From positions 62,001 to 126,000 of the forward strand of contig JALCKY010000002.1 in NCBI GenBank assembly GCA_022647575.1: 64,000 nucleotides of DNA, written 5' to 3'. Under the pieces are notes generated by a model that saw nothing but the letters and a program-made list of their open reading frames with translations, had not been told where the DNA came from and searched no databases. Origin of the DNA: Lachnospiraceae bacterium (GTDB lineage Bacteria; Bacillota; Clostridia; Lachnospirales; Lachnospiraceae). This document shows, in pieces, positions 3,052 through 5,149 of the stretch (position 1 is its first letter; each line of letters begins with the position of its first letter). The position numbers and the translations under genes are program-made.

Positions 3052-4066
3052 CCTTCTCCTCCGTCTCATCCATGACCGACTTGATTCTTCTCAGCTTCTT
3101 CGCCAATGCGTCAAATGCATCCGGCGTGATCGACTGCGGGCCGTCGCTCTTGGCATGCGCCGGATCATTGTGCACTTCAATCATCAGGCCGTCTGCTCCG
3201 GCGCCTACCGCCGCGCAGGCCAGGGAGGATACCAGGGCTGATTTCCCGGAAGCGTGGCTGGGATCGATCAGGATTGGAAGATGGGTCAGCTGGCGCAGCA
3301 TCGGCACTGCCGTGATATCCAGCGTATTCCGCGTAGAGGGTTCGAACGTGCGGATGCCTCTTTCACAGAGGATAACCTTGTTATTTCCCCCTGCCATGAT
3401 GTATTCCGCACTCATCAGCAGATCCTCATACGTCGCTGAAAGTCCTCTCTTCAGAAGAACCGGCTTGTCAATCGTGCCGAGCAGTCTCAGCAGTGTATAA
3501 TTCTGCATGTTGCGGGCACCGACCTGAATGATATCGACATCCCGGAAAAGCGGCAGCTGGGAACGGTCCATGATTTCCGTGACGATCGGCAGGCCGGTCG
3601 CTTCCTTTGCCTCAAGAAGAAGCTTGATGCCGTCGACTGCAAGACCCTGGAATGCATACGGTGAAGACCTGGGCTTGAAGGCGCCTCCCCTGAGGACAGT
3701 GGCGCCGGAAGCCTTGACGGCTTTGGCAATGCCGATGATCTGCTCTTTCGATTCCACCGAGCAGGGGCCCGCGATCAGCGTGAGGTTTCCGCCTCCGATC
3801 TGCGTATCCCCGACTTTGACGACGGTGTCCATCGGATGGAATTTCCGGTTCGCATTCTTGTATGGTTCCTGGACCCTCTTGACATCTTCCACGATATCCA
3901 GTGCGGAAATCAGATCCATGTCGACGGCGGAGGTATCTCCGACCAGTCCCAGGATCGTCTGGTTTTCTCCGACGGTCGGATGGACCTGGAGATTCATTTC
4001 TTCCAGCCAGCGGATGAGTCCGTCCAGCTGTGTCGGGTCAGGATTTTTCTTCAGAATGACGATCAT
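3044..4066 (-). CDS. aroF: 3-deoxy-7-phosphoheptulonate (DAHP) synthase
   Basis: 340 residues; condenses PEP and erythrose-4-phosphate, the first step of the shikimate pathway. Residues 1-70 form a small ferredoxin-like regulatory domain, followed by the type I-beta barrel with LIAGPCSVESKEQI, GGAFKPRSSPYAFQG, GARNMQNYTLL, LLKRGLSATYEDLL and the metal-site region DPSHASGKSALV. The ATG at 4066 has AAGGAGG in good position. Its 3' end overlaps pheA. Transcription must pass an intrinsic terminator about 50 bases upstream of the start, part of a phenylalanine-codon attenuator, so aroF-pheA expression should follow Phe-tRNA charging. Confidence 0.94.
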   Translation of the reverse strand: MIVILKKNPDPTQLDGLIRWLEEMNLQVHPTVGENQTILGLVGDTSAVDMDLISALDIVEDVKRVQEPYKNANRKFHPMDTVVKVGDTQIGGGNLTLIAGPCSVESKEQIIGIAKAVKASGATVLRGGAFKPRSSPYAFQGLAVDGIKLLLEAKEATGLPIVTEIMDRSQLPLFRDVDIIQVGARNMQNYTLLRLLGTIDKPVLLKRGLSATYEDLLMSAEYIMAGGNNKVILCERGIRTFEPSTRNTLDITAVPMLRQLTHLPILIDPSHASGKSALVSSLACAAVGAGADGLMIEVHNDPAHAKSDGPQSITPDAFDALAKKLRRIKSVMDETEEKDG

Positions 4067-4117
4067 GCTTGTTCCTCCTTGATGTTTGGTGCCGGTGTCC
4101 GCTGCGGCAAATAAAAA

Positions 4118-4138
4118 ACGCAGCCGGATCGGCTGCGT
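4118..4138 (-). terminator. Attenuator terminator before aroF
   Basis: On the minus strand ACGCAGCCG, a three-base loop and CGGCTGCGT form a nine-pair GC-rich hairpin followed by TTTTTTATTT. It stands between a Phe-rich leader peptide and aroF, not at a gene end. The 5' arm can instead pair with GGATTGGC at 4179-4186 (eight pairs, one G-U), which would prevent the terminator from forming. Confidence 0.85.
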
Positions 4139-4185
4139 CGGTTTTCCTTTTCAGAAACAGGTTTATGCTTCCCTTTGCGCCAATC

Positions 4186-4257
4186 CTAACTGACCTTACC
4201 CTGAAAGGTAAAGTTAAAAAAGGCGAAAAAGAAATTAGCGGAATGAATTCCAGTCAT
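4186..4257 (-). CDS. Phenylalanine-rich leader peptide (attenuator)
   Basis: A 23-codon reading frame with ribosome site CGGAG five bases before its ATG. Seven of its codons are Phe, in the run NFFFAFFNFTF. It ends just before the segment GGATTGGC (4179-4186). Bases GCTAAT (4234-4239), directly before the Phe run, can pair with ATTGGC of that segment, and the segment can alternatively pair with the terminator's 5' arm. This is the 1:2, 2:3, 3:4 arrangement of enterobacterial pheA-type attenuators. A ribosome stalled at Phe codons should cover segment 1, allow 2:3 pairing and let transcription into aroF-pheA. No homologue was checked. Confidence 0.8.
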   Translation of the reverse strand: MTGIHSANFFFAFFNFTFQGKVS

Positions 4258-4287
4258 AAATCTCCGTTTCAAAAAAATATTAGGTAT

Positions 4288-4316
4288 AAAGTAGCACAAT
4301 TCCCCGGACCTGTCAA
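4288..4316 (-). promoter_or_regulatory. Probable promoter of the leader-aroF-pheA operon
   Basis: A perfect -35 TTGACA (4311-4316) lies 17 bases from TACTTT (4288-4293), which is preceded by the extended -10 element TG-C. Transcription would begin near 4281, about 24 bases before the leader-peptide ATG. The -10 itself matches consensus only moderately. Confidence 0.6.
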
Positions 4317-4360
4317 TAAAAGGATGGAGCCTGACGGAGGATTCCGGCTGAAAAACCCGG

Positions 4361-4389
4361 TGGACAAGCACGGTCCGAAGGAATATGAT
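4361..4389 (+). promoter_or_regulatory. Probable promoter of sdaAB-sdaAA
   Basis: TGGACA (4361-4366), a 17-base spacer and TATGAT (4384-4389). The usual start distance puts the 5' end of the RNA at about 4395-4397, on the ATG of the first mini-ORF, so the message could be leaderless. Confidence 0.6.
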
Positions 4390-4394
4390 AACTT

Positions 4395-4489
4395 ATGAAT
4401 CATTCCCGAAGGGCATTCTCGTGAATTCCCGAAAGACATTCTTATGAATTCCCGAAAGGCACTCTCATGAATTTCCGAAAGGCACTCTC
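4395..4489 (+). repeat. Four tandem overlapping mini-ORFs leading into sdaAB
   Basis: Four near-identical units, one of 26 bp and three of 23 bp, fill the sdaAB leader. Each is a tiny reading frame of 8 or 9 codons whose TGA overlaps the next start as ATGA or GTGA: 4395-4424, 4421-4447 (GTG start), 4444-4470 and 4467-4493. The last overlaps the sdaAB ATG at 4490. The peptides are MNHSRRAFS, VNSRKTFL, MNSRKALS and MNFRKALS. Each unit also carries a GAAAGG-like ribosome site about seven bases before the next start, so ribosomes could pass from one frame to the next and into sdaAB. Confidence 0.75.
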
Positions 4490-5149
4490 ATGAACGTTTT
4501 TGATATCGTCGGACCCGTCATGATCGGTCCGAGCAGTTCCCATACAGCAGGAGCGGACCGGATCGGCCTGATTGCCCGGGAACTCCTTTCTTCCGAACCG
4601 GTAAAGGCGGATATCCTTCTTTCCGGTTCCTTTGCACGCACCTATAAAGGGCACGGTACAGACAAGGCGCTGATTGCCGGCATCATGGGCTTTCGGCCCG
4701 ACGACATCCGGATCCGGAATGCTCCGGAAATTGCTGCCGAATCCGGTCTGGAGGTTAAGGTCCATACCGGCCAGATTCCCGATACGCATCCCAATACCGC
4801 CAGGATCGAACTGACAGATGCCAAAGGACATCAGGTCTCTGTCGTCGGAAACAGCATCGGCGGCGGCAATATCCGCATCTCCAGCGTCAATGGCATGCGC
4901 GTGGTCATTACCGGACACCGCGCCACCCTCGTCGTCCTTCACCGTGACGTTCCCGGCATCATTGCCGCCGTCACCGTCGTCCTGACCGGTGCCGGAGTCA
5001 ATATCGCGGAATTTCATCTGGCCCGGCTCGAACCGGGCGGCGAAGCCGCAATGACCATCGGCATTGAGGGAAACGTCGATCCGGATCTGTGCAGGAACCT
5101 TTCTTCCCTTCCGCACATCCATGCCGCTACCATCATCGAACCTCTGTAG
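4490..5149 (+). CDS. sdaAB: L-serine dehydratase, iron-sulfur-dependent, beta subunit
   Basis: 219 residues; partner of SdaAA in the oxygen-sensitive [4Fe-4S] enzyme that deaminates L-serine to pyruvate and ammonia. The N-terminal domain starts MNVFDIVGPVMIGPSSSHTAGADRIG, the family signature (shown in part: GPSSSHTAGA). It also has GSFARTYKGHGTDKALI and a C-terminal ACT domain around residues 145-219 (DVPGIIAAVTVVLTGAGVNI). The start ATG overlaps the last mini-ORF's stop and has GAAAGG upstream. A 32-base gap separates it from sdaAA. Confidence 0.92.
   Translation: MNVFDIVGPVMIGPSSSHTAGADRIGLIARELLSSEPVKADILLSGSFARTYKGHGTDKALIAGIMGFRPDDIRIRNAPEIAAESGLEVKVHTGQIPDTHPNTARIELTDAKGHQVSVVGNSIGGGNIRISSVNGMRVVITGHRATLVVLHRDVPGIIAAVTVVLTGAGVNIAEFHLARLEPGGEAAMTIGIEGNVDPDLCRNLSSLPHIHAATIIEPL

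Follow-up and report, generated by a model that had tools for sequence, protein, structure and literature searches.

How is transcription of aroF and pheA adjusted to the supply of phenylalanine in a member of the Bacillota? In the usual account, attenuation by leader peptides belongs to the Proteobacteria, while the Bacillota entrust the same job to T-box RNAs, which sense uncharged tRNA. For the window, by which we mean the whole stretch of 64,000 nucleotides of Lachnospiraceae DNA analysed in this work, a preliminary description had proposed a Phe leader-peptide attenuator ahead of aroF-pheA. The sequence analysis supports this proposal: the Phe run is found in most relatives of the genus, the helices covary and the leader codons track the content of the operon. 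We regard it as highly probable that aroF-pheA is under the control of a ribosome-mediated transcription attenuator that senses the charging of tRNA-Phe, and the core of this reading, namely a Phe-codon leader with predicted ribosome-dependent antitermination ahead of aroF-pheA and no T-box, is supported by sequence comparison and folding models. The ORF, its Phe run, three covarying helices, the match between codons and operon and the dependence on ribosome position were all computed here.

The leader and the genes that it precedes

The features of the locus, all on the minus strand, are the following:
4316-4311, minus strand: -35 box TTGACA of the leader promoter, an exact match
4293-4288, minus strand: putative extended -10, TG-n-TACTTT, with a 17-nt spacer from TTGACA (read from the sequence)
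4265-4262, minus strand: Shine-Dalgarno-like GGAG of the leader ORF (read from the sequence)
4257-4186, minus strand: leader ORF MTGIHSANFFFAFFNFTFQGKVS, including the stop codon TAG; ATG at 4257, 23 sense codons
4233-4204, minus strand: regulatory codons, residues 9-18, FFFAFFNFTF, with seven Phe codons (two TTC, five TTT)
4213-4194, minus strand: hairpin P1 inside the ORF, CTTTACC (4213-4207) with GGTAAGG (4200-4194), conserved in the genus
4186-4179, minus strand: segment 2, the 5' strand of the antiterminator, GGATTGGC, sharing its first base with the end of the stop codon
4139-4117, minus strand: intrinsic terminator of 10 pairs, then TTTTATTT, from the terminator scan
4133-4126, minus strand: segment 3, GCCGATCC, the end of the terminator 5' arm, the loop and the first bases beyond; partner of segment 2
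4066-3044, minus strand: aroF, DAHP synthase, the first controlled gene (Pfam DAHP_synth_1 and DAHP_snth_FXD; NCBIfam NF006421 above cut-off)
3069-2188, minus strand: pheA, prephenate dehydratase with an ACT domain (Pfam PDT and ACT above cut-off)

The promoter and the 23-codon leader described earlier were confirmed by a direct check of the sequence, and a short ORF with a start codon and a putative ribosome-binding site lies between the promoter and aroF. TACTTT agrees with TATAAT at three of six positions and has a TG one base ahead, as in an extended -10; the promoter is absent from the list returned by a consensus promoter scan. Of 19 same-genus leaders, 16 have TTGACA within the 90 nt that precede their start. 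In 7 of these 19 the start codon picked by the scan has no Shine-Dalgarno-like motif, and for some of them (e.g. L094) an upstream in-frame ATG looks better. A run of codons for the end product stands ahead of aroF-pheA: seven Phe codons had been described as spanning eleven residues, and the count holds but the span is ten (residues 9-18). Seven Phe within a ten-residue window are unique to the aroF leader among the 748 short ATG ORF ends on both strands of the window. The aroF product is a DAHP synthase of the type that bears a ferredoxin-like domain according to Pfam and NCBIfam, and the start of pheA overlaps the 3' end of aroF. Between the leader promoter and the divergent gene for a serine dehydratase beta chain, and overlapping the start of that gene, lies a 23-bp tandem repeat (4402-4494; four copies, 88% matches).

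It might be argued that the locus carries a divergent T-box that Rfam has overlooked, in particular as T-boxes occur in the same genome, with three matches, and in 40 of the 41 genus genomes searched. This is extremely unlikely. No match to the T-box family RF00230 was found in the window at gathering scores or in 4040-4420 at permissive thresholds, in line with the earlier statement that no T-box is visible at aroF, nor, by coordinates, was any found at the 28 genus aroF loci, for which the nearest T-box on a shared contig is about 84 kb away; the T-boxes of the window's genome lie elsewhere. The ORF, the helices and the terminator take up most of the roughly 250 nt that separate the promoter from aroF. 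Two of the three genomic matches are above cut-off, one ahead of a 2-isopropylmalate synthase-like (leuA-like) gene and the other (L113, G000:C2:164919-165160) ahead of a gene for a TrpX-like substrate-binding protein that is itself below its family cut-off, while the third (L114, G000:C7:37331-37565) is just below cut-off and precedes a TrpB-like gene. Judging from these sequence matches, T-boxes and a leader peptide seem to work side by side in one cell, the former on the leuA-like and Trp-related genes and the latter on those for Phe. The genome has a second DAHP synthase gene (L002, G000:C1:42889-43881; 48% identical) with a tyrA-like gene next to it downstream; no Phe/Tyr-rich ORF was found in the 400 nt upstream of this second gene. 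In E. coli, pheS is preceded by a Phe leader; in the upstream stretch examined for pheS of the present genome none was found.

Helices of the leader and their covariation

In the mechanism that we propose, transcription would start about 25 nt ahead of the leader ATG, as judged from the -10, and a ribosome would trail the polymerase along the leader. With ample Phe-tRNA the ribosome would reach the stop codon and cover segment 2 (4186-4179), which would leave segment 3 free; the terminator would then form and transcription would stop ahead of aroF. With scarce Phe-tRNA the ribosome would stall in the Phe run at residues 9-18 and break the upstream pairing that hides segment 2, and segments 2 and 3 would pair before the 3' arm of the terminator exists, letting the polymerase enter aroF-pheA. 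That the leader is translated, that the ribosome stalls, that it is coupled to the polymerase and that the locus responds to phenylalanine are points that we infer.

A strong intrinsic terminator is present between the leader ORF and the first gene. The terminator and its T-run had been recognized before, but as nine pairs at 4118-4138, for which the scan gives 10 pairs at 4139-4117. The positions of segments 2 (4186-4179) and 3 (4133-4126) stand as first described; they are complementary over eight bases with one G-U pair, and this antiterminator covaries among relatives. The leader region folds at -58 kcal/mol against a shuffle mean of -41 kcal/mol (z -3.8), and none of 200 shuffles was as good. 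In the best fold of leader plus terminator, at -49.5 kcal/mol, P1 is part of a longer 1:2 pairing in which segment 2 is hidden. A shorter 1:2 pairing, of GCTAAT (4239-4234) with ATTGGC, had been suggested; it can form, but a fold forced to contain it reaches -40.9 kcal/mol, a penalty of 8.6 kcal/mol, and the two codons of GCTAAT fall in a poorly conserved stretch of the genus alignment, where conservation of the pairing is not seen. According to the folding model, it is superseded in the window's own leader by the conserved P1 and the longer 1:2 pairing.

When 18 same-genus leaders were aligned by sequence alone, compensatory changes were present in all three helices, namely P1, the 2:3 antiterminator and the terminator; the tested structures were written from members of this alignment, a bias in their favour. 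P1 is paired in 98.4% of cells and four of its seven pairs are invariant; one further pair changes on both sides from A-U to G-C in six sequences, by which the peptide shifts from Thr to Ala. Both the antiterminator, with 74.2% of cells paired, and the terminator, with 95.6%, show changes on both sides at 7 of their 10 pairs. Taken jointly, P1 and the antiterminator give a covariation score of 0.255, which none of 500 shuffles reached and which fell to 0.075 or less when the partner was slid by one to three columns, while two of the five measures (pairs with a both-sided change, and further pair types) were reached by 34 and 68 of the 500 shuffles. For the two weakest covariation measures of the terminator, 7 and 10 of 500 shuffles did as well. 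The leader thus possesses a mutually exclusive, covarying antiterminator; those of the window, L094 and L083, the three leaders inspected for this, share a single register. Since P1 does not preclude the antiterminator, it is not itself the textbook 1:2 competitor; we suspect that it serves as a pausing hairpin.

The peptide pattern FFFAFxGFTF, often followed by GK, is conserved within the genus, as might be the case if the small hydrophobic product of the ORF were itself functional and the terminator were an ordinary one. We consider this very improbable, as the C-termini of the same-genus leader peptides differ in both length and sequence and the Phe and Tyr content differs by operon. Moreover, the change from F-T-F to F-A-F is matched in the six sequences by the change in the other arm of P1, so that RNA pairing accounts for part of the peptide pattern.

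Relatives of the leader, ribosome position and codon content

The distribution of the leader was followed with AroF of the window as query, using 80 named-record loci, which are the best 80 of 582 confirmed matches and hence a sample picked by similarity, and same-genus and same-order loci taken as the best 30 matches of a genome search. A leader was called where a short upstream ORF has at least five Phe or Tyr in ten residues, with L091 let in at four. By this rule leaders were called at 78 of 111 loci (19 in the same genus, one in the same order and 58 in named records); two of the calls, L031 and L070, which have TTG starts, are spurious, which leaves leaders at 56 of these 80 named-record loci. 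A stricter rule, which asks for six or more Phe or Tyr in ten residues and an ATG start, still finds the ORF at 66 of the 110 loci with at least 200 nt upstream, where the rest of the same loci gives an expectation of 0.0026 per 400 nt. Typical runs are NFFFAFTGFTF in the window's genus and AAEYFYFNFAYFF and AAYFYFYF in other Clostridia; the records of two leaders (L014 and L022) are labelled Lentisphaerae, a label given here as recorded.

Within the genus, 19 of 28 aroF loci have a leader by the ORF scan and 20 of 28 after the genus model search described below, which added that of L084, more than 400 nt upstream of aroF. No leader was detected within 400 nt upstream at 8 of the 28 loci, and the leader is thus not universal. 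The prediction that homologues would keep the Phe run and the 2:3 pairing therefore holds for most of them, but not for these eight same-genus loci. The leader label has to change six times or more on the AroF tree, which suggests frequent gain and loss, though the starred branches force only two of these changes.

A terminator was found between the end of the leader and aroF for 75 of 78 leaders (74 of 76 without L031 and L070), against 11 of 780 gaps after mononucleotide shuffling; the scan found none at L104 and L050. When the strand that follows the last aromatic codon was paired with the terminator arm and loop of its own locus, the mean over 74 loci was -18.7 kcal/mol, against -14.0 kcal/mol with swapped partners, and none of 2000 permutations reached the own value; part of this gap may reflect the base composition of the genomes, which swapping leaves in place.

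A sequence model of the genus leader (R1; 158 positions, built from 18 leader sequences) gave 20 strong matches in 42 genus genomes, namely its 18 source sequences and two new ones (in G006 and G061), which lie ahead of aroF at distances of about 265 and 40 nt. There was also a weak match ahead of aroF in G063, and no match in G065, in which aroF is present. Across the order, R1 matched in 3 of 196 genomes, these being the window's own and two with weak matches that are not aroF leaders, in a search with stricter filters and 15 candidates scored per genome, by which weak matches may drop out; the sequence signature accordingly looks genus-bound. The wider group is united by its architecture of ORF, terminator and 2:3 pairing and not by a sequence signature. 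Two leaders, SNYYFGFIFSFARF at L104 (G030) and SNSFFGFTFDFARF at L138 (G063), are unlike those of the rest of the genus; AroF of L104 groups with those of Oscillospiraceae (82/81), which suggests exchange or mixed bins. Just past the aro operon of a Clostridia bin (L003:10282-10333), the Streptococcus sRNA family SpF59 of Rfam is matched above its cut-off.

The effect of the ribosome was modelled for 73 leaders, with L031, L070 and L048 left out. The modelled ribosome hides all RNA up to ten bases beyond the A-site codon and only RNA 3' of it is counted, and the readout is the share of segment 3 bases that are paired upstream before the 3' arm of the terminator is made. In the window's leader this antiterminator fraction reaches 0.66 when the ribosome stands over the Phe codons, as against 0.20 for codon 3 and 0.21 for the stop codon; the means of the 73 leaders are 0.62 at the start, 0.75 at the best aromatic codon and 0.30 at the stop. 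In the folding model alone, a stalled ribosome is thus predicted to free the antiterminator and a terminating one to block it. The fraction falls by more than 0.2 from aromatic codon to stop in 66 of 73 leaders and by 0.2 or less in the other 7, and none shows a rise of more than 0.2. A difference above 0.3 between aromatic codon and stop was obtained for 56 of the 73 real leaders and for 73 of 292 shuffled linkers; by this model, part of the difference is mere geometry. From start to aromatic codon, a rise of more than 0.2 is seen in only 20 of 73 leaders, and a textbook 1:2 protector is consequently not general, although the window's leader has one. In most relatives, unlike in the textbook case, an untranslated leader is therefore predicted to be read through, whereas that of the window is predicted to behave like the textbook. 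In the five leaders for which it was read out, the terminator stem is favoured at equilibrium at every ribosome position (probability 0.86-0.97 for the window's leader, 0.52-1.00 over all five), from which it follows that the decision for antitermination must be kinetic.

The codon content of the leaders was compared with that of the operons for 76 leaders, L031 and L070 being left out and the downstream neighbours being assigned by tblastn. The 20 leaders ahead of aroF-pheA have Phe and Tyr codons in a ratio of 118:10, and only 5 of the 20 have any Tyr in their best twelve residues, while the 39 leaders of operons with tyrA have a ratio of 151:146 and Tyr in all 39; for the 17 other leaders the ratio is 76:46. 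Trp is nearly absent, with three codons in all 76. The difference between pheA and tyrA leaders has a Mann-Whitney p of 7e-9 that is not corrected for kinship, and as 18 of the 20 pheA leaders come from one genus and the two outside it (L014 and L022) contain Tyr, kinship and operon content are not separated in this comparison. One same-genus exception, L104, points in the right direction for a match between codons and operon: downstream of its aroF come aroB and aroA, and its leader contains two Tyr. Two further aroF leaders (L038, KYYYVLY; L052, FAYYYALY) are mostly Tyr, and the next ORFs there match GNAT acetyltransferase domains, not aromatic pathway genes.

These data bear on the suggestion that the terminator and antiterminator are real but are switched by a protein or a small molecule, for example as an aromatic-amino-acid riboswitch or through an RNA-binding protein, with the Phe ORF incidental. 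Since the antiterminator folds in most leaders even with the ribosome at the start, another ligand could in principle decide, and, according to the accessible part of the report, an unidentified element upstream of aroFBC-tyrA in Enterococcus faecium has been proposed to be an aromatic riboswitch (PMC4448216). Such a switch would not account for leader codons that track the operon, Phe with aroF-pheA and Phe plus Tyr with tyrA, or for an antiterminator strand at or near the leader stop codon in the window's genus, and no Rfam family reaches its cut-off at the leader locus. We therefore judge it unlikely and retain sensing of tRNA-Phe charging by the ribosome as the preferred reading.

Leaders ahead of other genes were also found. 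Weak matches to the genus model lie ahead of a paaK-like gene in two genus genomes, G001 (MKRNLHLVNFFSFFFSFTGEDGKVNLLC; L137, G001:C110:17918-18071) and G010 (MTAHRNNFFGFTFGWWLRQHVS; L136, G010:C130:2328-2482). That of G001 shares its P1 arms with the aroF leaders, has a terminator, forms an antiterminator duplex of -18.8 kcal/mol and switches in the folding test; that of G010 has a terminator and 4 Phe/Tyr in 10 residues of its ORF, and no switch was seen in the folding test. The G001 gene encodes a relative of phenylacetate-CoA ligase, with TIGR02155 as its best NCBIfam match (509 bits against a cut-off of 646 bits). In both genomes the next gene encodes a pair of ACT domains, followed in G010 by a gene that is TrpB-like by eye. 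Neither genome has a match to the window's AroF or prephenate dehydratase, though with completeness at 89% and 93% the absence of these genes is not proven; chorismate synthase is present in both. Prephenate dehydratase is unmatched in 7 of 42 genus genomes, all seven of which have a paaK relative and two of which have the leader; no leader was found at any of the other 23 paaK-like loci examined. Six other paaK-like loci with a low-threshold ORF were set aside by eye, their ORFs being long or reading into the gene and having no Phe run, and none of the six matched the genus model. With a called Phe leader at two of the 30 loci fetched in the genus, and no folding switch in G010, paaK was rejected as a general target. 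For the loci that do carry one, we infer from sequence and folding that a Phe-sensing leader may govern phenylacetate-dependent synthesis of phenylalanine; if so, it would mark phenylacetate activation as the route of the G001 cell to phenylalanine. In a related Clostridial family (L139, G137:C2:116581-116763; L143), a short ORF rich in Ile (MSNLSFANVIINIINLIIDEAICVDNK...) and a hairpin resembling a terminator stand ahead of an ilvB-like TPP enzyme gene, which is followed by genes that resemble ilvN, ilvC and ilvD by eye. This arrangement is probably a branched-chain leader-peptide attenuator.

Comparison with known systems

Among the closest known systems is the Rfam family RF01859, Phe_leader, of enterobacterial pheA, which shares with the present leader a Phe-rich ORF, an alternative antiterminator, a terminator and an operon with prephenate dehydratase. 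The E. coli PheL peptide, which we take to contain FFFAFFFTF, is strikingly like FFFAFFNFTF here. The locus had been described as textbook enterobacterial: this is apt for the logic of attenuation but not for family membership, which we rejected, as the score to RF01859 is 33.5 bits against a cut-off of 55 bits, with about eight pairs of the model broken, and 17 same-genus loci gave no match at E up to 1. The order of the genes downstream, aroF-pheA, also differs from the enterobacterial case. A T-box (RF00230), unlike the aroF leader, has no leader peptide.

In the Bacillota and their relatives, several leader peptides have been described. According to the accessible part of the respective papers, His leader peptides precede hisS*/hisZ in bacilli, before which, ermC aside, none had been shown outside Proteobacteria and Actinobacteria (PMC2965389), and the Leu-rich attenuator peptide of ilv-leu in S. 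aureus has experimental support (PMC5794164); these follow the same principle, but with other amino acids and other genes. The candidate Leu/phe leader RF01743 is restricted to Lactococcus lactis in the table of its report, as far as that text is accessible (PMC2864571), and gave no match in the window. Another case is uORFC-13-1 of Acholeplasma, a uORF with Phe codons ahead of aroF and an adjacent intrinsic terminator, for which attenuation has been proposed and a further base-paired substructure is backed by comparison; in the accessible part of its description it is confined to Acholeplasma and unassigned environmental sequences, with 24 representatives and at least one Phe codon (PMC8632094). 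Compared by text alone, and within that part of the description, it differs from the leaders reported here in that neither Tyr codons nor any tie to the make-up of the operon is mentioned (PMC8632094).

We found no account of Phe or Phe/Tyr leaders ahead of aroF in Clostridia in the open-access literature. On balance we lean, if only by a little, towards the view that a large, so far undescribed group of attenuators with Phe and Phe/Tyr leaders rules aromatic amino acid synthesis in anaerobic Clostridia of the gut, with codons tuned to the operon and with the module re-used at a paaK-like gene. If this is correct, the specificity of such a leader could be read from its sequence, and the group would offer a natural series for the gain, loss and swap of sensing codons; a leader could also reveal the product of a pathway, such as that of the paaK-like gene in genomes without prephenate dehydratase. 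Since leader-peptide attenuation in the Bacillota is already in print, what would be new compared with the systems above is the group itself, its spread and the match between its codons and its operons, and not the principle.
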